DNA of 64,000 nt from Bacteroidota bacterium (GTDB lineage: Bacteria; Bacteroidota; Ignavibacteria; Ignavibacteriales; Ignavibacteriaceae): positions 1-64,000 of the forward strand of contig JAJYDC010000007.1 of the NCBI GenBank assembly GCA_021777835.1, in the 5' to 3' direction. The first letter of the stretch is position 1, and the number at the start of each line of letters is the position of its first letter. The notes beneath the pieces were generated by a model. The model ran no database searches, had not been told where the DNA came from, and saw only the letters and a list, made by a program, of their open reading frames with translations. The position numbers were made by a program, and so were the translations under genes. This document shows, one piece after another, positions 4,476-56,097 of the stretch.

Positions 4476-4550
4476 TATCACATCTCTTACCTCATACTTA
4501 AAAATCATACAAAAGTGCTATTGATAAAGCTTCTTTCAAAAGCTAAAATG

Positions 4551-4597
4551 ATTGCAGCATTTTTTTATTCATTAACATGAATAAAAATATTGCATGC
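4551..4597. terminator. Imperfect inverted repeat / likely bidirectional terminator
   Basis: An 8-bp perfect stem (TTATTCAT, loop TAAC, ATGAATAA at 4565..4584) sits between a T-run on the left and an A-run on the right. The similarity continues outward to GCA-rich ends, giving an imperfect inverted repeat of about 47 bases. It follows the response-regulator gene and precedes the small secreted ORF, so it probably ends the two-component transcript. Confidence 0.45.
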
Positions 4598-4656
4598 TAA
4601 AACTATTTTATGCGGATTAACTAATTAAATCATAAAAAACATTCTTAGGAGATGTT

Positions 4657-4845
4657 ATGAGGATTATAAAAAATCTCATGGATTTATTTCCCTTGCTCTT
4701 TTTCGTTTCGTTAACTGCAGCTGTGCGGAGTACGAATGGTTCCAAAGTCGTGGATAAAGAAACACTGAAAATGAATGCAATGTTTGCAAATTCCTTTTCA
4801 TCGGGAAATGTTAACGATATGTATAATAATTATTTAACAAATTAA
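4657..4845 (+). CDS. Small secreted or membrane-anchored protein, 62 residues, unknown function
   Basis: A good ribosome site (TTAGGAG) precedes the ATG. The first 24 residues look like a signal peptide or a single membrane segment (PLLFFVSLTAAV after a basic start). The remaining about 38 residues are polar (MNAMFANSFSSGNVNDMY). It ends 9 bases before the beta-barrel gene, so the two are probably co-transcribed. I do not recognise a family. The coupling, SD and signal-like start argue that it is real; it could act as a small envelope partner of the next protein. Confidence 0.55.
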   Translation: MRIIKNLMDLFPLLFFVSLTAAVRSTNGSKVVDKETLKMNAMFANSFSSGNVNDMYNNYLTN

Positions 4846-4854
4846 GGATCAATT

Positions 4855-5916
4855 ATGAATAAGCTAATCTATTGTATTTCCATCTCTGTGTGTCTTTATT
4901 TTAGTTCTGTTTTATATGCTCAGGATAATTTAAATCAAACACTATCAAAGCTATCCAGTGATGCTGCAAGTGCGTATGTAGCTCCGGTTGTCTCCGGTTT
5001 CGGGGCTAACTTAAATTCCGGATGGGTTCATAGAATTGTACCGGCAAAGATGTTTTCCATTGATATTGAGTTAACTTTTGTCGGCATGGGAACTTTTTTT
5101 GGCAGCAATAATCAATCTTTTGCTACAAACGGTCAGTTTAGGTTTAACCGAGATCAGGCGATGACCATGACTTCTAATATTGGCAATCCGGACGCAAGGA
5201 ATGCAATAGTAGATCAGATAATAAATCAAGATTTCCAGGTTGGAATCCAAGGCCCGACAATTGTGGGTAGTAAATCACAGGACCTGTCAATAAACTTTCC
5301 GGGTAAGACATTTACATACAATTCACAATCTTACACAGTACCTTCACAAAATGTAGATGTAGCAGGTGCCACGGGCCTTCTTGACAATTTGTCAATACTC
5401 CCCTTAGCTGCGCCTCAGCTTTCTATTGGTACTTTTTATGGAACGGCTCTGGAATTAAGGTTCTTGCCAAGCATTCAAATAAATAAAGATCTGGGAAGCT
5501 TTAGTTATTTCGGAATAGGATTCCAACATAATCCTGCCGTCTGGTTGGACACGCCGTTGCCTTTAGATGTTTCCGTAGGATTTTATACTCAAACTATGAA
5601 AGTCGGTACAATATTTAAAAGTACTGCAACTTCTGTCGGAATATACGCGGGTAAAACTTTCGGATATAGCCTTTTGGGAGTTTCACCATACGCAGGCTTT
5701 ACATTTGAAAGCTCGACTATAACTGTAAATTACAATCATATGGTTGATACTCAGGCGGGACCTGAAAACATTAATGTATCGTTCGATTTGAAGGGTGAGA
5801 ATTCAGTTAGGTTTACTGTCGGTGCTTCCTTTAAGCTTGCAATTATTAATCTAAATGTCGACTACAGCTTGGCAAAATACAATACCGTAAGCGCAGGTTT
5901 AGGATTTAGTTTTTAG
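4855..5916 (+). CDS. Outer-membrane beta-barrel protein, DUF6588-like
   Basis: Signal peptide (residues 1-22, cut after SVLYA). The mature part has alternating hydrophobic strands and ends in aromatic residues (AGLGFSF), typical of an outer-membrane barrel. The start of the mature region (VSGFGANLNSGWVHR, then FSIDIELTFVGMGTFF) resembles DUF6588 proteins of Bacteroidota, from memory. Length 353 residues fits. It sits between the small secreted ORF and two sorting-domain proteins, suggesting an envelope or surface group under the two-component pair upstream. No enzyme motif is visible. Confidence 0.65.
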   Translation: MNKLIYCISISVCLYFSSVLYAQDNLNQTLSKLSSDAASAYVAPVVSGFGANLNSGWVHRIVPAKMFSIDIELTFVGMGTFFGSNNQSFATNGQFRFNRDQAMTMTSNIGNPDARNAIVDQIINQDFQVGIQGPTIVGSKSQDLSINFPGKTFTYNSQSYTVPSQNVDVAGATGLLDNLSILPLAAPQLSIGTFYGTALELRFLPSIQINKDLGSFSYFGIGFQHNPAVWLDTPLPLDVSVGFYTQTMKVGTIFKSTATSVGIYAGKTFGYSLLGVSPYAGFTFESSTITVNYNHMVDTQAGPENINVSFDLKGENSVRFTVGASFKLAIINLNVDYSLAKYNTVSAGLGFSF

Positions 5917-47354: not shown

Positions 47355-48641
47355 TTAAAGATCGCCCTTGAGGAATATAGCTCGACCTGGATTTTCTGCC
47401 CCTTGTGAGGCCTCTTGCGTTACTATGAATTTTACTCCGTCCTGGCTTGTAATTTCGGGAAGCTTAAATGAGTAATAAGTCGATCTGTTTTCGTTTGTAA
47501 AAACTCCTAAACTACTGTATTTACCTTTTATACTAATCCATAACTGATATGCCTTGCCTTCAGCCAAAGTCGGCAAGTTCGAAAATTGTAAAAAGCCCCC
47601 ACTATTATCAAAACTTATAATAAGCTTACCGTAAACTGTTGGATTAATCTTTGTACCCTGTAAATTTATTATCCTTACATTTTTCGATTGAAGGAGATTT
47701 TCAAGAGCCTCATTTGTTGAAATATTTGATGAAAGTTTCTGAATTCGGCTATTAAGATTCTCAACATTAGCTTTGTAATTTTTGACTTCACTAGAGAATT
47801 TGTAATAAAAATATAATATCCCTGAGAAAGCTATTATTAATAATAATATTCCGATTATTGTCCCTGAAAACTTTTTCTTCTCTTTCTCGTTTTTACTGCC
47901 ATTCCCAAAGTCGCCATGAAGCGTGTATGGCTTTTTCTTCTCTGCTATCTTGTTTTCATCTGAAATTGCTTCAATCGGCTGTCCTTCTGCACCTTCCTCA
48001 TGTTGTTCTTCTTGAAGTTGTGACTCTTCTTCTGCCGCATTTTCCGATGAGCTAATGTTATCCTTAATAATACTTCTTAAATCTCGCCCTTGTATTTGTG
48101 TTACTTGAGATGGTTTGTAAAGTTTAGACGATGGCTTTTGAGTTGATACAACTTCAAATCCGTCGGTTCTTGTATTAAGCCTGTAACGCGATACATCAAT
48201 GCCGCTCTCATCCGATGTTTCATCCGGTTGAGCATTCTCTTTTGACTCCGCCTCTTTTTCTAAGGCATCTTCCTCTGTGTAATCTGTCTTCGTCTTGAAT
48301 AAATCAGATGCCTTCACCTCATCATTTTCATGAAGCATGTCTGACTGCCCGCTTTCATGAGGTGTACTTTCACCTGCATTTACACTTACATTCTTTAGTC
48401 TCTTTTCATTTCTTATTTTGTAAAGATTGCGTGCAACTTTATCTTTTAACTGAGGAGGCGGCGTCTCTAGGTTTAATATTGAAGGTAATAACGAAGCTAA
48501 GTTCTGAAACTCTCCTAATTCCTGCCATGCAAAGTCTCCGCCTGTCTTTAAATATTCTTCTAATTTATTCAGATCTTCTTCATCTAAACATCCCAATGAA
48601 TAAGCAAATAAATAATCGTAATATTCATTTCGTTCAGGCAT
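47355..48641 (-). CDS. Anti-sigma factor (RskA-like) with long acidic linker
   Basis: 428 residues. The N-terminal zinc-free anti-sigma helix bundle is YYDYLFAYSLGCLDEEDLN and LASLLPSILNLETPPPQLKD, then a long acidic and polar linker (about residues 85-250, rich in Glu, Asp and Ser). One membrane helix (about 260-282, TIIGILLLIIAFSGILYFYY) follows, then a periplasmic RskA C-terminal domain (GKLIISFDNSGGFLQFSNLP, KAYQLWISIKGKYSSLGVF). Typical RskA-like proteins are about 230-260 residues, so this one is enlarged by its linker. The start overlaps the sigma-factor stop codon (TAATG). Confidence 0.88.
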   Translation of the reverse strand: MPERNEYYDYLFAYSLGCLDEEDLNKLEEYLKTGGDFAWQELGEFQNLASLLPSILNLETPPPQLKDKVARNLYKIRNEKRLKNVSVNAGESTPHESGQSDMLHENDEVKASDLFKTKTDYTEEDALEKEAESKENAQPDETSDESGIDVSRYRLNTRTDGFEVVSTQKPSSKLYKPSQVTQIQGRDLRSIIKDNISSSENAAEEESQLQEEQHEEGAEGQPIEAISDENKIAEKKKPYTLHGDFGNGSKNEKEKKKFSGTIIGILLLIIAFSGILYFYYKFSSEVKNYKANVENLNSRIQKLSSNISTNEALENLLQSKNVRIINLQGTKINPTVYGKLIISFDNSGGFLQFSNLPTLAEGKAYQLWISIKGKYSSLGVFTNENRSTYYSFKLPEITSQDGVKFIVTQEASQGAENPGRAIFLKGDL

Positions 48642-49222
48642 TATTCATTTCCCTTAATCAAGTTTTCCTTTAGATTCGAAAGCGCGATTTTAACTTTCGA
48701 TTTTACTGTCGGATAAGGAATGTTTAACTTTGAAGCGATTTCTTTTTGTGTTAAGCCCTCGTAATATGCAAGATATATTACATACTGCTGCGCTTCTGTA
48801 AGACTGTTGAGCGCTGATTCAACACTTTCCTTTAAACTCAATGCGGTTTTTAAATCAAGCGGATCTATTGCCATTGAAAGATGTGGAATAATAAATTCGT
48901 CTTCATATGCATCAGTATATTCTTTTATGCCCGCCGCTGACTTTAACCTTCGAATAGTATCCGTAGCTTTGTTCCTGGCTAGAGATACAAGCCATGTATA
49001 TACATTTGCTGTGTGAAAATCAAAAAGATTTGCTTTTCGCCAGATAATAACAAAAACATCCGACATTACATTTTCGGCAATGCTTTCTTCCGCTGCAATT
49101 TTCTTTATTACTGTGTATAGCAAAGGTGAGTAACGATTGTATAAAGCTTCTAACGCTTTTGAATCGTAAGATGCAACCCGCTCCATTAATTCCAAATCTG
49201 TTGAAGATGTACCGACAGCCAA
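48641..49222 (-). CDS. ECF-family RNA polymerase sigma factor
   Basis: 193 residues. Region 2 is ALYNRYSPLLYTVIKKIAAE, VMSDVFVIIWRKANLFDF and YTWLVSLARNKATDTIRRL. Region 4 is AQQYVIYLAYYEGLTQKEIASKLNIPYPTVKSK. This fits the ECF group that pairs with RskA anti-sigma factors, as SigK does. Coupled to its anti-sigma gene by the TAATG overlap. Such systems respond to envelope or redox stress; targets are unknown. Confidence 0.95.
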   Translation of the reverse strand: MAVGTSSTDLELMERVASYDSKALEALYNRYSPLLYTVIKKIAAEESIAENVMSDVFVIIWRKANLFDFHTANVYTWLVSLARNKATDTIRRLKSAAGIKEYTDAYEDEFIIPHLSMAIDPLDLKTALSLKESVESALNSLTEAQQYVIYLAYYEGLTQKEIASKLNIPYPTVKSKVKIALSNLKENLIKGNE

Positions 49223-49613: not shown

Positions 49614-50987
49614 ATGTCAACTGTTCTATACTGGCAATGGGGTGTCGTAATTTTCTCAAGCACAATGCTTTATTTTATTTCTCCAAAGGTTTTAACTAAG
49701 GAAAGCTTTTTTAAAGGCGCTTCTCTAAGCATGACAAAACCCGGTTATGCTATGCTGACTTTCAGTCTGGTTATCTCGTGGATTTTTGCTAAATCTGTAA
49801 CAAACGTTTCAAATCTTGGAATGCAATTCGGATTTGTCGGAGGTGTTGCATACGCTACTTATTATCTTTCATTTCTCGTGGCCGGAATAGTTATATATAA
49901 GATAAGAACAAAAACTAACGTCAACAGCCTGCATCAATTCCTGGAAAAGAAATTTGGTCGTGGAGCAATCGTAGCCTTTACAGTTGTAATAGCAATAAGA
50001 CTGCTCAATGAAATTTGGTCTAATACTGAAGTGATTGGATCTTATTTCGGATCTACCGGATCCCCTCAATATATAGCCTCAATAGTTGTATTTACTGGGC
50101 TGACTCTCGCTTATACCCTGAAGGGAGGATTCAGAACTTCGCTGGTGACTGATCTAATTCAGATGGGACTCTTTGCAGTATTGCTCTTTATCGTTCTTAG
50201 CTTAATTATACCTAAAACCGGCTCGGTCACCCCGTTCATTAAAACTGGTAGCTGGACCTTGACCGGAGGTGTTGATTTAATCTTTGTCGCCCTTATCCAA
50301 ATATTCAGCTACCCTTTTCATGATCCTATTTTAACTGATCGCGGTTTCTTGACTGATCCCAAAACAACCTTAAAAAGTTATATCACAGCCACAATAATTA
50401 GTTCAATAATAATTTTGCTTTTCAGCTTCGTCGGTATTTACGGAAGTTTCGTAGGTCTAAAAGGAGAGGCTGCAGTAGAGGTCTCTAAATCTTTCGGCGT
50501 TTTTACACTAATCGTTATGAATTTCATTATGGTTACTTCAGCATCCTCATGTATTGATTCAACATTTTCGTCAGTGTCAAAACTAATTGCTGTAGATCTA
50601 TCGAAAAAGGAAAAGATTTCTATTTCAAAAGGCAGGATAACTATGATTCTAACCGCAATTGGAGGAACAATCCCGCTGATATTCTCTCCAAGTATTCTGT
50701 CAGCCACTACATTAAGTGGTACAATGGTTCTTGGCTTAGCTCCGGTTTTCTTACTCTGGAAAGTGCCTGCTCCGAAAATATCCTTTCACCTTGCACTTTG
50801 GACAGGCGTAGCTGCCGGTATTGTATTAGTTTTTGGATTACTCCCTAAATCATTATACTTGGGACACGGAAGTTTTGCGGATCTGCTTGCAATAAATATC
50901 TATGCTACATTAATTATTTTTATTCTTTATTTTCTTCCTTTTATATTCAACAAGAAGGAAAATATGATAAACGTTGTTGAAAATTAA
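49614..50987 (+). CDS. Sodium:solute symporter (SSS/SSF family)
   Basis: 457 residues, about 13 membrane helices. Family features are LGMQFGFVGGVAYATYYLSF, the central TLAYTLKGGFRTSLVTDLIQMG (Na+/proline symporter motif) and SASSCIDSTFSSVSKLIAVD. It starts at ATG after a very strong SD (AAGGAGG). The conserved LKGGFRTSLVTDLIQ marks the LeuT fold. The substrate is unknown, but the next two genes, a radical SAM enzyme and a phosphoesterase, follow within 15 bases and overlapping. Import of their substrate is a reasonable guess. Confidence 0.9.
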   Translation: MSTVLYWQWGVVIFSSTMLYFISPKVLTKESFFKGASLSMTKPGYAMLTFSLVISWIFAKSVTNVSNLGMQFGFVGGVAYATYYLSFLVAGIVIYKIRTKTNVNSLHQFLEKKFGRGAIVAFTVVIAIRLLNEIWSNTEVIGSYFGSTGSPQYIASIVVFTGLTLAYTLKGGFRTSLVTDLIQMGLFAVLLFIVLSLIIPKTGSVTPFIKTGSWTLTGGVDLIFVALIQIFSYPFHDPILTDRGFLTDPKTTLKSYITATIISSIIILLFSFVGIYGSFVGLKGEAAVEVSKSFGVFTLIVMNFIMVTSASSCIDSTFSSVSKLIAVDLSKKEKISISKGRITMILTAIGGTIPLIFSPSILSATTLSGTMVLGLAPVFLLWKVPAPKISFHLALWTGVAAGIVLVFGLLPKSLYLGHGSFADLLAINIYATLIIFILYFLPFIFNKKENMINVVEN

Positions 50988-51002
50988 TTAACCGGAATTC
51001 AA

Positions 51003-51893
51003 TTGAATAAGAAATCCCCGGAAATATCTCTCGATGCACTTGACCATCTTTGGTTCCAGGTAAGCGGTACTCTTTGCAATATTGTGTGCGATCATTGCTT
51101 TATAAGCTGCAGCCCTGTAAACCATAATTTCGAATTCATGCCTTATGAGCAAGTAAATCAATTTCTCGAGGAATCAGCCGTTATTGGGGTCAAGGAATAT
51201 TATTTTACAGGCGGTGAACCTTTCATGAATAAAGAACTTTTGAGAATTCTCGAACGCACTATGCAATTTGGTCCGGCTACTGTTTTAACAAACGGAATGC
51301 TAATCAAACCATCAACTGCCCAAAAGCTCAAAGAAATTTCAGACAATTCAATTTACTCGCTTGAGCTGAGAATCAGCATTGACGGCTATACTGAAGAAAT
51401 GAACGACTCAATTCGCGGAAAAGGTGTATTCAAAAAAGCAATGACAGGTGTAAAGCTTCTTGTTGAAAACAATTTCCTGCCTATCATAACTATTACTAAA
51501 ACCTGGGAAGAAAAAGAAGACGATATTGTCCTTAATGGATTTATAAAAACCTTAAAGTCTTTTGGCTATCCTCGCCCAAGATTAAAGATTCTACCTTCTA
51601 TAAAGATTGGTAAAGAAGCCGTTAGAACAAAAGGATACGATCAGTTTGAGTATGTAACTGACCAGATGCTGATTGATTATGAAGTGAGTAATTTAATCTG
51701 CGCTAATAGCAGGGTTGCAACTAACAAAGGCGTATTTGTCTGCCCAATTCTTATAGATTCACCGGATGCAAATCTTGGTACCACTCTTAAAGAATCGTCT
51801 ATAGCTTATGAAATTAAACATCAAGCTTGCTATACTTGCTATCTGTATGGCGCTATTTGTTCAAACTTTAACTCTGTGGGAAGAGATGCATAA
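51003..51893 (+). CDS. Radical SAM protein with SPASM/twitch-like C-terminal cysteines
   Basis: 296 residues. The radical SAM cluster motif CNIVCDHC (Cys25, Cys29, Cys32) is followed by a fourth Cys36. Other core elements are FTGGEPFMNKELLRI, TVLTNGMLI and LELRISIDGYTEEMND. The C-terminal third has further cysteines (ICANSRVATNKGVFVCPIL, HQACYTCYLYGAICSN) that would hold an auxiliary iron-sulfur cluster. It starts at TTG with GGAA upstream, 15 bases after the symporter. No precursor peptide is seen nearby, so peptide maturation is not supported. The reaction is unknown. Confidence 0.87.
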   Translation: MNKKSPEISLDALDHLWFQVSGTLCNIVCDHCFISCSPVNHNFEFMPYEQVNQFLEESAVIGVKEYYFTGGEPFMNKELLRILERTMQFGPATVLTNGMLIKPSTAQKLKEISDNSIYSLELRISIDGYTEEMNDSIRGKGVFKKAMTGVKLLVENNFLPIITITKTWEEKEDDIVLNGFIKTLKSFGYPRPRLKILPSIKIGKEAVRTKGYDQFEYVTDQMLIDYEVSNLICANSRVATNKGVFVCPILIDSPDANLGTTLKESSIAYEIKHQACYTCYLYGAICSNFNSVGRDA

Positions 51894-52686
51894 TAAAATA
51901 GCACTGTTCGGTGGAGTATATAGCAATTACCTTTCTCTTGAGGAAACTTTGAAAGACATCTCAAAAAGAAATGTCGATGAAATTTATTGTTTGGGTGACC
52001 TCGGTGCCTTTGGTCCCAATCCTAATAGGGTTTTCCCTCTGCTTGAAAAGTATAAAGTAAAAGTGGTTCAGGGGAATTATGATAATTCTATCGGTAATAA
52101 CATGGATGACTGCCAGTGCGGATATACCGATCCACGCGACAATTATTTCGCTAAGCTAAGCTATGATTATACTTTCAAAAACACATCGGAAGAATTTAAG
52201 CAATGGATGAAAGCCCTTCCAAATGAAATAAGAATAGAGCTTGGTAGTTACAGTGCGCTGCTTTGCCATGGTTCTCCGCGACAGACAAATGAATTCTTAT
52301 GGGAGACATCAACCCCAACCCACTTTCTCGAAAAACTTTGCAGCGACTTTAACGCAGATATTATCTGTGCTACGCATACAGGAATTCATTGGAATAGAAA
52401 GTTAGACTCACCCTTACGATCAAACAATAGATATTTTGTAAACGTCGGAGTAATAGGAAGACCTGAAAACGACGGTAATACATTTGTCGGATATACTCTG
52501 CTATATTGTATAGACAAAATGTTAAAGATAGAATATATACCCATAGAATATGATTACAGAAGATTAGCCATAGAGATGCAGAAAGAAAAACTGCCGGAAC
52601 AATTTGTCGAGACTATCTTAACCGGATGGTGGACAACATGCCTCGAAGTTCTTCCCGCTAAAGAAAGAATTAAAGGAAAATATTAA
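51886..52686 (+). CDS. Calcineurin-like metallophosphoesterase
   Basis: About 267 residues starting at ATG 51886, which overlaps the radical SAM gene by 8 bases; the frame opens earlier but the conserved fold begins NKIALFGGVYSNY. Metal motifs are CLGDLGAFGPNP, VQGNYDNSIGNNMDDC, LCHGSPRQTNEF and CATHTGIHW. The usual D-x-H of motif I (DxHxN) is replaced by GGVYSN, so metal binding at that site may differ from canonical enzymes. Likely hydrolyses a phosphoester or phosphodiester made or used by the radical SAM partner. Confidence 0.85.
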   Translation: MHNKIALFGGVYSNYLSLEETLKDISKRNVDEIYCLGDLGAFGPNPNRVFPLLEKYKVKVVQGNYDNSIGNNMDDCQCGYTDPRDNYFAKLSYDYTFKNTSEEFKQWMKALPNEIRIELGSYSALLCHGSPRQTNEFLWETSTPTHFLEKLCSDFNADIICATHTGIHWNRKLDSPLRSNNRYFVNVGVIGRPENDGNTFVGYTLLYCIDKMLKIEYIPIEYDYRRLAIEMQKEKLPEQFVETILTGWWTTCLEVLPAKERIKGKY

Positions 52687-52937: not shown

Positions 52938-54290
52938 ATGCAGCATCTTGTTATTATTGGTAACGGCATTACGGGAATTACTGTAGCTCGCTATGTCCGC
53001 AAACAAAGCGACATGCGGATTACAATCATTTCTAACGAATCAAAATATTTTTTCTCCCGCACTGCTCTTATGTATGTATACATGGGACACATGAAGTGGG
53101 AAAATATAAAACCTTATGAGGACTGGTTCTGGGAGAAGAATCATATCGACTTAATATTTGCAAAGGCAACTGCAGTTGATACTGATTCTAAGAGTATCTG
53201 TCTTGAATCAGGCGAAAAGATCATTTACGACAAACTAGTAATTGCAACAGGCTCACACTCAAATAAATTCGGATGGCCAGGGCAGGATCTAAAAGGCGTA
53301 CAAGGGTTATACTCAAAGCAAGATCTTGAATTACTGGAAGAGAATACTAAGAATATCCATTCGGCAGTAATTGTAGGCGGCGGACTAATAGGAATTGAAC
53401 TTGCCGAAATGCTGCATGCGAGAGACATACATGTGACATTCCTTGTCAGAGAAAAGTTTTATTGGAATAGTATTCTTCCGAACGAAGAAGCTGCAATGGT
53501 AAGCAGACATATTCTTGAACATAATATGCAATTGAAACTTGGCGTCGAACTAAAAGAAATATTACATGACCACAACGGTAGAGCACGCGCTGTAATAACC
53601 AAAAGTGGTGAAGAAATCCCATGCCAGTTTGTCGGGCTAACTCCGGGAGTTCACCCTAATATTGATCTTGTAAAAAACTCAAAGATTGAAACAAATAGAG
53701 GTGTTCTGGTAAATGAATACTTAGAGACGAACATACCGGACGTTTATTCTTCAGGCGATTGCGCCGAGATAAAATCATCATTCCATAATGCAGCTAACAA
53801 AACTTCTTTGCCTCCCAACAAACTTGAACAGCTTTGGTACACCGGAAAAATGCAAGGAAAGATACTTGCCCTGAATATTTTAGGGAACAGAGTAAAATAT
53901 GATAGAGGTATATGGTATAACTCAGCAAAGTTTTTGGATATAGAATATCAAACGTATGGCTTTGTTAGCGCAGTGCCGCGCGAAGGTGAAGATAGTTTCT
54001 ATTGGGAGCATCCGTCAGGAAAGATTTGTATACGGCTGGTTTATTCATCAAGTGATAGATCAATCATTGGTGTTAATGTGTTCGGTATGAGACTTCGCCA
54101 TCGCACATTCGAATCTTGGATAAAAGAAAAAAGAACAATCGAATACGTACTTGAGAATTTACCTATCGCAAATTTCAACCCTGAGTTCTATAAAAAACAT
54201 GAACAACATATAATCGATAAATTTAATCTTGAAAATCCCGGAAAGAACTTATCATTAAGAAAAAGATCTTTATCCAACATAATTTCATAA
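52938..54290 (+). CDS. FAD-dependent NAD(P)H-type oxidoreductase
   Basis: 450 residues. FAD motif IGNGITGITVARYVRK at the N-terminus, second dinucleotide motif VIVGGGLIGIELAEML, and the FAD-closing motif DVYSSGDCAEI. It belongs to the Pyr_redox_2 group (rubredoxin reductase or NirB-like). The C-terminal about 130 residues (WYNSAKFLDIEYQTYGF on) form an extra domain not found in minimal reductases. Likely partner: the membrane ferredoxin encoded 11 bases downstream. Confidence 0.88.
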   Translation: MQHLVIIGNGITGITVARYVRKQSDMRITIISNESKYFFSRTALMYVYMGHMKWENIKPYEDWFWEKNHIDLIFAKATAVDTDSKSICLESGEKIIYDKLVIATGSHSNKFGWPGQDLKGVQGLYSKQDLELLEENTKNIHSAVIVGGGLIGIELAEMLHARDIHVTFLVREKFYWNSILPNEEAAMVSRHILEHNMQLKLGVELKEILHDHNGRARAVITKSGEEIPCQFVGLTPGVHPNIDLVKNSKIETNRGVLVNEYLETNIPDVYSSGDCAEIKSSFHNAANKTSLPPNKLEQLWYTGKMQGKILALNILGNRVKYDRGIWYNSAKFLDIEYQTYGFVSAVPREGEDSFYWEHPSGKICIRLVYSSSDRSIIGVNVFGMRLRHRTFESWIKEKRTIEYVLENLPIANFNPEFYKKHEQHIIDKFNLENPGKNLSLRKRSLSNIIS

Positions 54291-54301
54291 GATGGCAAAG
54301 T

Positions 54302-55624
54302 ATGAATATCATTCAAATAGAACCGTTTAAAGTTTATAGTCATAACAATAAAATAGAAACACTTAAGAAATCCGGACTTGCAGCCATTGCAATAGGCTTT
54401 CTATTCTTTCTAATAAGTTTAACCGGAATTTCAAGTAAGCAGCCGCTTTTATTCTTTTTCTTGAGTTTCGGTTTAGTAACTGCAGGATCCATACTCTACT
54501 TTGCCATTCAAGTTAAAGAAGCTCCCGCAGGAATAAAAAATAATAGGATATTTTTTGATGCTATTACATCGCGCAAGTCAATCGCATGGATTCTAGGTAT
54601 TGTATTAACAGGCTTCTATATTCTGCTTTATTGGTATCCCGGTACATTACAAAATTTAGTAAATCTTATTAACCCGCTTAGCTATTTACTCCGAGGTCAA
54701 CCAGCAGACCGCTGGGTTCTTTACGGCACATTCTATACCACGGCAGTTATAATCATGGCAATTAGAATGATCGTGAAATACAGGAATAATCGTTATCAAA
54801 TTCTTCGATCAATATCCGTCAGCTTCTTTCAGTTAGGATTTTCATTTATAATCCCCGGCATACTCGTACGGTTAAACAAACCGGAATTTTATTTCAACTA
54901 TTTTTGGCCCTTAAAGTTTCAATATCTTTTCCCTGACGAAATAAAATATCTAACCTCAAGCGGCGGTGCTCTGGGTTATTTCATGATATTCTGGGGGGCT
55001 GCTATGCTAATAATTGCTACTCCAATCTTAACATACTTCTTTGGGAAACGCTGGTATTGCTCCTGGGTATGCGGTTGCGGAGGACTAGCCGAAACTGCAG
55101 GTGACCCGTTTAGGCAAAACTCGGATAAATCATTAAAGGCATGGAAACTTGAAAGGATATCAATTCACTCAGTATTAGTCTTTGTTGTTATTACTACAGG
55201 ATTGCTGTGGATTAACTCTGCATCAAACGGAAAAGTTCTGGGCTCAGTCTCTCAAGTTTTCGCAGAGTGGTATGGTTTTGTAATAGGCGCATTATTCTCG
55301 GGAATTATCGGAGTCGGTTTCTATCCAATATTCGGAAGTCGCGTGTGGTGCCGTTTTGGGTGTCCTATGGCCGCCACTTTAGGAATGCTTCAGAAATACT
55401 TTTCAAGGTTTAGAATAACAACGAACGGCGGGCAATGTATTTCCTGCGGTAATTGTTCCACCTACTGCGAAATGGGAATAGATGTAAAATGGTATGCACA
55501 GCGTGGACAAAATATTATTCGATCTTCATGTGTAGGATGCGGTATTTGCTCTGCTGTTTGCCCGAGAGGTGTTCTTAAATTAGAAAATCTTCCGCGCGCC
55601 GGAAGGTATAGTGAAGTTGACTAG
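54302..55624 (+). CDS. NapH/NosR-like membrane 4Fe-4S ferredoxin protein
   Basis: 440 residues with about six membrane helices. Two loop motifs of the family are present (YCSWVCGCGGLAETAGDP and WCRFGCPMAATLGML), then two classic 4Fe-4S motifs near the C-terminus (CISCGNCSTYCEMGID and CVGCGICSAVCPRG). This is the build of NapH, NosR C-terminal and RsxB-like electron-transfer proteins at the inner membrane. Context with a flavin oxidoreductase suggests electron flow between a cytoplasmic donor and the membrane or periplasm. Confidence 0.9.
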   Translation: MNIIQIEPFKVYSHNNKIETLKKSGLAAIAIGFLFFLISLTGISSKQPLLFFFLSFGLVTAGSILYFAIQVKEAPAGIKNNRIFFDAITSRKSIAWILGIVLTGFYILLYWYPGTLQNLVNLINPLSYLLRGQPADRWVLYGTFYTTAVIIMAIRMIVKYRNNRYQILRSISVSFFQLGFSFIIPGILVRLNKPEFYFNYFWPLKFQYLFPDEIKYLTSSGGALGYFMIFWGAAMLIIATPILTYFFGKRWYCSWVCGCGGLAETAGDPFRQNSDKSLKAWKLERISIHSVLVFVVITTGLLWINSASNGKVLGSVSQVFAEWYGFVIGALFSGIIGVGFYPIFGSRVWCRFGCPMAATLGMLQKYFSRFRITTNGGQCISCGNCSTYCEMGIDVKWYAQRGQNIIRSSCVGCGICSAVCPRGVLKLENLPRAGRYSEVD

Positions 55625-55647: not shown

Positions 55648-56097
55648 ATGAAATTCTCTAATAATCATCTAAAGAAAATAATTTTGCTGATTTGGGCATT
55701 ATGGTTTTCAATTGTTTCCCTTACAAATATTTGTGATGCTCTAAGAAGCTTGGGCGTAATTCCTGAATGGTTCCGCTTTGTATCGGGAAATTTCCAATAC
55801 ATAAGTGCTGTAACTGCAATATATCTTTTCCCATACTGGCTCAATGCAATTCTATTTTTAGTCGTTATAATTTTAGAAGTAAGCACAAGCTTTCTCTTCT
55901 TCAAAGCATTCCTTAATGTAACTGTAAATAATGAAAATTTTATAGTACCGCCTTTTATTTTCAGCTTAATAATTTTCGGGGGATTCATGGTTATGGACGA
56001 AATATTCGTAGCGTACGACCGCATGGGAAACATTGAAACTACTCACCTTGGAATTTTAGTGGGATTACTTGCCTCGTATATCGCTGTAATAGACTAA
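55648..56097 (+). CDS. Four-helix membrane protein, unknown function
   Basis: 149 residues with four membrane helices (IILLIWALWFSIVSLTNI, YISAVTAIYLFPYWLNAI, FLVVIILEVSTSFLFFKAF, LGILVGLLASYIAVID). The segment EIFVAYDRMGNIETTH lies between helices 3 and 4. It resembles DoxX-like small membrane proteins only in size. It starts 23 bases after the ferredoxin gene, so it is probably a subunit or accessory of the same membrane unit. Confidence 0.72.
   Translation: MKFSNNHLKKIILLIWALWFSIVSLTNICDALRSLGVIPEWFRFVSGNFQYISAVTAIYLFPYWLNAILFLVVIILEVSTSFLFFKAFLNVTVNNENFIVPPFIFSLIIFGGFMVMDEIFVAYDRMGNIETTHLGILVGLLASYIAVID

Follow-up and report, generated by a model that had tools for sequence, protein, structure and literature searches.

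A radical SAM protein and its phosphoesterase-fold partner: a candidate ArsS-like branch of organic-arsenic metabolism in an Ignavibacteriaceae contig

What could a radical S-adenosylmethionine (SAM) enzyme achieve between a sodium symporter and a phosphoesterase with an altered metal motif? The question is raised by a three-gene operon in the first 64,000 nucleotides of contig JAJYDC010000007.1 (assembly GCA_021777835.1, family Ignavibacteriaceae), the whole stretch analysed here and called the window below. The operon encodes an SSF-type sodium/solute symporter, a radical SAM protein (rSAM) and a metallophosphoesterase-like protein (MPE); comparison loci in other genomes carry L-numbers such as L005. 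The initial annotation had proposed a radical reaction on an imported metabolite combined with removal of phosphate. Our comparison puts rSAM and MPE into a conserved pair that lies, in related genomes, among genes of arsenic metabolism. We give a probability of roughly 50% to the reading that the rSAM-MPE operon encodes an ArsS-like pathway forming carbon-arsenic bonds with a repurposed phosphoesterase, and hence a branch of organic-arsenic metabolism. The arsenic context is strong in the relatives and weaker in the window itself.

The radical SAM protein and its phosphoesterase-like partner

The pairing was followed from both sides. A scan of the genome contigs with rSAM yielded 28 loci. Fourteen loci (L005, from a separate genome search, and L006 to L018) make up a close group in which MPE adjoins rSAM in all cases except L017 (13/14). 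A profile search with MPE matched 6 of 40 Calditrichota genomes and, at E ≤ 1e-30, 49 of 396 Acidobacteriota genomes, 28 of them strongly at E ≤ 1e-95. Ten weaker Acidobacteriota matches were fetched and turned out to be canonical DCxC-type metallophosphoesterases; because no rSAM adjoins any of them (0/10), they were left out of the MPE family counts. Among 29 further strong MPE loci (27 Acidobacteriota, 2 Calditrichota), rSAM adjoins MPE in 28, in one of which the contig end leaves just a fragment of rSAM, and at the remaining locus, L137, the contig starts at MPE. A search for phosphoesterases next to relatives of rSAM had been suggested by the initial annotation, and the two genes were found together in either direction. 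The pair, often with overlapping start and stop codons, occurs in records titled Bacteroidetes, Calditrichaeota, Acidobacteria, Elusimicrobia and Kutchimonas. Within the window's own phylum, MPE was found in 1 of 252 genomes (E ≤ 1e-80), namely the window's genome, and an earlier survey found rSAM in 2 of 197 genomes of its class; in many genomes, the profile searches scored a share of the candidates rather than all of them, and the per-genome counts ignore kinship. We conclude that rSAM and MPE are a conserved pair, beyond chance adjacency. No description of this pair was found in the open literature searched, with subscription journals outside the scope of that search and absence accordingly not proven. 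At L013, a gene for a PiT-type permease (4541-5719) lies between the rSAM and MPE genes.

With 56.1 bits against the Pfam model PF04055 (cut-off 29.5), rSAM belongs to the radical SAM superfamily. The three cysteines of its CxxxCxxC motif and five further cysteines near the C-terminus are invariant in 19 of 19 aligned rows. None of the best 25 of 54 matching NCBIfam families is reached above its cut-off, and membership of a named radical SAM family was rejected on this basis. The best match among these 25 is NF049973, the Rv1681 family, yet its score of 107 bits is far below the cut-off of 380 and the alignment covers only the core of rSAM (residues 24-181); a distant relative of rSAM also matches this family best (90.5 bits). 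The ArsL family is absent from the same 25, although no search was aimed at it, and the ArsS model TIGR04167 scores 54.6 bits with a cut-off of 300. In an hhalign comparison with an alignment of 17 ArsS proteins, rSAM aligned over 278 columns (approximately 18% identity, probability 99.5, E 2e-22). Here, eight cysteines fall into register: those of CxxxCxxC, and C233, C247, C276, C279 and C286 of rSAM with C279, C294, C331, C334 and C342 of ArsS, so that rSAM shares the domain layout and the five auxiliary cysteines of ArsS. A tree that also included 16 further radical SAM proteins placed the rSAM family in one group (99/92) and ArsS in another (100/100).

The structure model of rSAM has a predicted local distance difference test score (pLDDT) of 88.5. 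It matches the SPASM/Twitch enzymes SkfB, with Z 21.5 and a root-mean-square deviation (rmsd) of 3.1 over 241 residues, anSME (Z 18.9) and MoaA (Z 17.9). The C-terminal cysteines and the modelled fold fit a predicted auxiliary cluster of the SPASM/Twitch type; the reaction of rSAM cannot be read from the fold match. The initial annotation was right in describing a radical SAM enzyme with auxiliary-cluster cysteines, one that exceeds the cut-off of none of the best 25 families.

The partner protein is the most unusual feature of the system. MPE matches the calcineurin-like family PF12850 (Metallophos_2; 44.8 bits, cut-off 27), and its model (pLDDT 86.3) is closest to four solved structures with Z 25-27, namely 2gju, 1nnw, 3qfm (SapH, titled asymmetric diadenosine tetraphosphate (Ap4A) hydrolase) and 3rqz, the next structural families following at Z of about 16. 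The superposition on 3qfm gives Z 26.2 and an rmsd of 2.9 over 240 residues. The family was aligned in 44 rows, equal to 43 distinct sequences as L167 duplicates L005, and compared with ten canonical relatives. Motif I reads GG[VIP]Y[SNA]N in the family and S-D-[IV]-H-[GA]-N in 10/10 canonical relatives; Y12 is found in 43/43 distinct sequences and G10 in all 41 that have this column, two rows being cut before the glycines. In motif V, the family has [TAG]-H-[TSC]-G, compared to GHTH in the canonical relatives. Four residues show no variation, namely the Asp of motif II, the Asn of motif III, the His of motif IV and the first of the two His positions in motif V. MPE thus departs from the two-metal signature (D-x-H, GD, GN, H, GHxH) by the changes Asp to Gly, His to Tyr and last His to Gly wherever the column is present. 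In this fold, metal 1 is bound by the residues that are lost, while those that remain bind metal 2 and include the bridging Asp. The altered first metal motif had been noticed in the initial annotation and holds throughout the 43 sequences; the alteration of motif V had gone unmentioned. As a natural case of a phosphoesterase fold that has lost one metal site while keeping the other under strong conservation, the family is of interest in its own right. C76 and C78 are also invariant in the family, but they are not special to the system because the canonical relatives have them. The loci L155-L164 (Acidobacteriota) encode canonical metallophosphoesterases with the same cysteine pair and intact metal sites, not beside an rSAM gene.

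Gene neighbourhoods in related genomes

Gene context was counted within 8 kb of rSAM in 41 loci with a readable rSAM, the flanks being shorter in some. These are 43 loci minus L132 and L137, in which contig ends cut rSAM; the duplicate L167 is not among them. The query proteins came from L009, L012, L013, L016 and L020, the first four of which lie among the 41. The arsenite methyltransferase ArsM was found in 11 of the loci, a glycosyltransferase of TIGR04282 or TIGR04283 in 13, a flavoprotein (Pyr_redox_3) in 23, a PiT permease in 3 and a MerA-like oxidoreductase in 2. Excluding the four query-source loci leaves ArsM in 9, TIGR04282/TIGR04283 in 9, the flavoprotein in 21 and PiT in 2 of 37. 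Chance adjacency of the arsenic genes was rejected, as 0 of 20 control regions, placed at round offsets in six of the same Acidobacteriota genomes, held any query gene. The identity of the flavoprotein rests on a Pfam scan of two proteins, and a search of solved structures with it returned only a 51-residue stretch of thioredoxin reductase.

For comparison, 20 Acidobacteriota loci centred on ArsS (of 66 places listed) were read. They contain ArsM in 9, TIGR04282/TIGR04283 in 10, PiT in 4, a MerA-like gene in 8, TVP38 in 9 and MPE in none. Both gene sets meet in L016, where a fused TIGR04283-TIGR04282 gene (228 and 179 bits, both above cut-off) and a MerA-like gene precede rSAM and MPE in a genome without ArsS; this locus directly links the rSAM-MPE and the ArsS-type sets. 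In L012, the five-gene order of the window recurs, with a fused TIGR04283-TIGR04282 gene at its end. Four cysteines (C33, C61, C156 and C206 in L009 numbering) are invariant in 11/11 ArsM proteins adjacent to rSAM and likewise in 9/9 beside ArsS; the cysteine quartet to be expected in ArsM is described in PMC8552651. On a tree of ArsM, the proteins from rSAM loci and from ArsS loci are not divided into two groups, such a split being present in 0% of 200 bootstrap trees. The arsenic genes and the parallel with ArsS loci had been missed in the initial annotation.

The association extends to whole genomes. Across the 396 Acidobacteriota genomes, TIGR04283 (E ≤ 1e-50) was present in 19 of the 28 with strong MPE and in 51 of the 65 with ArsS, compared to 46 of the 304 that have neither gene, and the association of MPE with TIGR04283 has a Fisher p of 1e-5, or 2e-8 with the ArsS genomes set aside, kinship being uncorrected. 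ArsS and MPE share a single genome where 4.6 were expected, that is 1/28 of the MPE genomes. In 19 genomes holding rSAM, ArsS was found in none, TIGR04283 above cut-off in 9 and TIGR04282 above cut-off in 15, the latter compared to 1 of 14 named control genomes that are unmatched by group.

More distant relatives of rSAM are found in L019-L022 (29-32% identity over the matched stretch), which form a separate branch within the new rSAM family on the tree. An rSAM profile at E ≤ 1e-50 also matched 71 of 240 Alphaproteobacteria genomes (about 30%); these are not on the tree. In 24 distant loci that were read, TIGR04283 occurs in 5, together with a separate TIGR04282 gene in 4, and MPE is nearby in 4. 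At L248, both glycosyltransferases beside rSAM exceed their cut-offs (205 and 152 bits). Twenty of these 24 come from the alphaproteobacterial loci L195-L224 and L245-L264, with MPE beside rSAM in 3 and TIGR04282/TIGR04283 in 4.

The operon in the window

Re-reading of the sequence confirmed the order and coordinates of the three genes (Table 1), including the 15-base spacing and the 8-base overlap reported in the initial annotation. The spacing separates symporter and rSAM (50988-51002), and rSAM and MPE overlap at 51886-51893 if MPE starts at the ATG at 51886; an alternative in-frame ATG at 51808 would give a product of 292 amino acids. Behind MPE and a gap of 251 bases follow genes for a pyridine nucleotide-disulphide oxidoreductase (NADox) and a NapH-like protein, in an order that recurs after MPE in L006 and L012, while L005 has an NADox fragment. 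From this conserved order, the operon may extend beyond three genes to include both.

Table 1. Genes and sequence features of the operon region, in window coordinates
Feature	Position	Strand	Remarks
SSF-type sodium/solute symporter	49614..50987	+	457 amino acids; first operon gene; Pfam SSF; orthologues directly before rSAM in L005, L006, L007, L012
Radical SAM protein (rSAM)	51003..51893	+	296 amino acids; TTG start; CxxxCxxC C25, C29, C32; C-terminal C233, C247, C276, C279, C286
Metallophosphoesterase-fold protein (MPE)	51886..52686	+	266 amino acids; metal-1 site erased (G10, Y12, G166); metal-2 ligands D38, N64, H128, H164 kept
Altered motif I of MPE	51910..51927	+	GGVYSN replacing SDIHGN; family alignment
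Pyridine nucleotide-disulphide oxidoreductase (NADox)	52938..54290	+	possible operon extension; Pfam Pyr_redox_2 165.6 bits
NapH-like membrane polyferredoxin (name is our reading)	54302..55624	+	possible operon extension; Fer4 domains
Small membrane protein ("membrane" is our reading)	55648..56097	+	149 amino acids; without Pfam match; same place in L006

The symporter passes the Pfam SSF model marginally (23.9 bits, cut-off 22.8), stays far below the NCBIfam sss model (34.7 bits, cut-off 184) and had no match in a search of solved structures. It was found near rSAM in 4 of the 41 comparison loci, all of them of the window's type (L005, L006, L007 and L012). The three genes described as a unit in the initial annotation do not travel equally: rSAM and MPE co-occur widely, and the symporter accompanies them in the window and all four window-type loci, so that its membership of the system is only partly supported. 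Directly upstream and divergent from the operon (47355-49222, minus strand) lie a gene that we read as a probable sigma factor and an RskA_C anti-sigma gene. A scan for promoters and terminators gave 35 promoter-like sites (27.6 expected) and 4 terminator-like sites (4.3 expected) and was not informative.

Proposed pathway, alternatives and known systems

In arsenosugar biosynthesis, a radical SAM enzyme adenosylates arsenic; this is the ArsS activity as cited in PMC12159101. For the rSAM-MPE pair, a corresponding sequence of steps can be proposed. In Acidobacteriota and Calditrichota, ArsM would methylate arsenite and so supply methylated arsenic, on which rSAM would form the next carbon-arsenic bond, probably with the 5'-deoxyadenosyl group that SAM provides. 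MPE would be a repurposed phosphoesterase of the Ap4A hydrolase type that uses its single surviving metal site to process or to bind the adenosyl-arsenical; descent from an enzyme for adenosine nucleotides would suit a protein working with such a compound. TIGR04282 and TIGR04283 proteins would build the sugar part in these two phyla, and the flavoproteins may handle the redox state of arsenic or of the clusters. Within the window, the symporter could fill the transporter slot by importing an arsenical or another precursor, with the NAD oxidoreductase and the polyferredoxin as candidate electron donors. Since no ArsM gene adjoins rSAM in the window and the symporter goes with window-type loci alone, the product made there is one that we infer.

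Several observations weigh against an arsenic pathway of this kind. TIGR04282/TIGR04283 genes are missing nearby in 28 of the 41 loci and ArsM in 30, though some contigs are short, and several adjacent TIGR04282 proteins score below the cut-off (54-130 bits, cut-off 134). "Arsenosugar" is an NCBIfam label for a predicted function of TIGR04282 and TIGR04283. In one of ten loci with a canonical phosphoesterase, ArsM and the flavoprotein are likewise present within 8 kb. All scanned ArsM proteins remain below curated cut-offs, and ArsM proteins from the same type of locus cluster to some degree (4 changes on the tree compared to 6.8-7.0 after shuffling). The sister-group relation of the rSAM family and ArsS has weak support (85/49) on long branches, rSAM has fold matches among other SPASM/Twitch radical SAM enzymes too, and the mutual exclusion of ArsS and MPE is not significant (p 0.06). 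The window itself adds to these points. Neither an ArsM nor a TIGR04282/TIGR04283 gene was seen between 45000 and 62700; ArsM is adjacent in neither the window nor its four SSF-type relatives, and TIGR04282/TIGR04283 only in L012. TIGR04283 above cut-off was not found in the window genome. Its TIGR04282 gene is on a different contig, next to a further glycosyltransferase gene, and its sole match to the ArsM profile is also outside the window's contig, beside a gene that we read as ArsR-like (L088, 1363-2527). As the ArsM-like and TIGR04282 genes lie elsewhere and no TIGR04283 exceeds the cut-off, the product in the window need not be a standard arsenosugar.

Among the alternatives, the one that survives best leaves MPE without chemistry of its own, as a scaffold or activator of rSAM. 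The metallophosphoesterase fold also underlies the binding protein Vps29, chains of which follow among the structures that match MPE next best; the family-wide erasure of the metal-1 ligand positions and the overlap of the rSAM and MPE genes are in keeping with such a role. A mere scaffold would have no need for the invariant metal-2 ligand positions and bridging Asp, however, and rSAM occurs without adjacent MPE in 20 of the 24 distant loci and in L017. We regard a purely structural MPE as rather unlikely.

Somewhat less probable still is that the lineage of the window recruited the pair for another imported substrate, so that the symporter brings in a metabolite which rSAM modifies, without any arsenic. 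The presence of the symporter in the window and in all four window-type loci would suit this, as would the missing adjacent ArsM and the lack of a TIGR04283 above cut-off in the genome. Yet the window rSAM is 63-83% identical to those of its own type and 65-70% to those of five Calditrichota loci, ArsM being a neighbour in three of these five, and L012 with its identical five-gene order ends in the fused glycosyltransferase gene.

Alternatively, the context could be arsenic but the radical a different one, with rSAM moving another part of SAM, as ArsL does, or using another partner to give an arsinothricin-like or new organoarsenical. According to PMC8552651, ArsL adds a 3-amino-3-carboxypropyl group to arsenic and forms a known pair with ArsM. 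Four ArsM proteins from beside rSAM were scanned, and the three from Acidobacteriota best match NF040538, the arsinothricin ArsM (339-356 bits, cut-off 500). This match does not discriminate, because three ArsM proteins from ArsS loci score alike (332-353 bits) and the L009 ArsM scores lower (178 bits), its best match being the general arsenite methyltransferase PRK11873 (202 bits, cut-off 263). Moreover, the ArsL described in that text has 428 amino acids and only three conserved cysteines, compared to 296 and eight in rSAM, and the TIGR04282/TIGR04283 genes point to a sugar. This possibility is considered improbable.

Least of all do we expect the ordinary phosphatase step of the initial annotation, for which the fold and family match of MPE speak, since three metal-1 ligands, namely Asp and His in motif I plus the second His in motif V, are replaced throughout the family and kept in 10/10 canonical relatives; MPE as a canonical phosphatase was rejected. 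What stands of the overall interpretation in that annotation is an rSAM outside the named families (best 25 of 54) and a widespread pair, with the symporter as a part in some loci and phosphate removal no longer a component.

Returning to the ArsS-like pathway with a repurposed phosphoesterase, it gives an unnamed radical SAM family a concrete arsenic hypothesis and makes it testable whether bacteria without ArsS produce arsenosugar-type compounds. A further-reaching version, to which we lean less, is an additional radical route to compounds of the arsenosugar type that does without ArsS and in which rSAM would work with a single-metal, phosphoesterase-fold partner derived from nucleotide phosphodiesterases. 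Counting distant relatives, this route would span five phyla or more and would be present in about 30% of the sampled Alphaproteobacteria, and bacterial organoarsenical synthesis would then be far wider than the distribution of ArsS suggests.

With regard to known systems, three comparisons can be drawn. The nearest solved structures to MPE, the asymmetric Ap4A hydrolase SapH/Spr1479 (3qfm) and the metallophosphoesterase 3rqz, share its fold, while canonical relatives retain three residues that MPE lacks, Asp and His in motif I and the second His in motif V. The arsinothricin genes arsQML resemble the relatives' loci in combining an arsenite methyltransferase, a radical SAM enzyme and a transporter in one cluster; they differ in the larger ArsL with its three conserved cysteines and, as far as the cluster is described in PMC8552651, by having no phosphoesterase. 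The closest parallel is ArsS (TIGR04167), with the same layout of radical SAM core and C-terminal cluster, eight cysteines in register and the common neighbours ArsM, TIGR04282, TIGR04283 and PiT, joined by a MerA-like gene in 2/41 rSAM loci. What sets the new loci apart from ArsS is the low identity of about 18% and the score far below the TIGR04167 cut-off, the Pyr_redox_3 flavoprotein that replaces TVP38 and, mostly, the MerA-like protein, and above all the MPE gene beside rSAM, which occurs in none of the 20 ArsS loci read.

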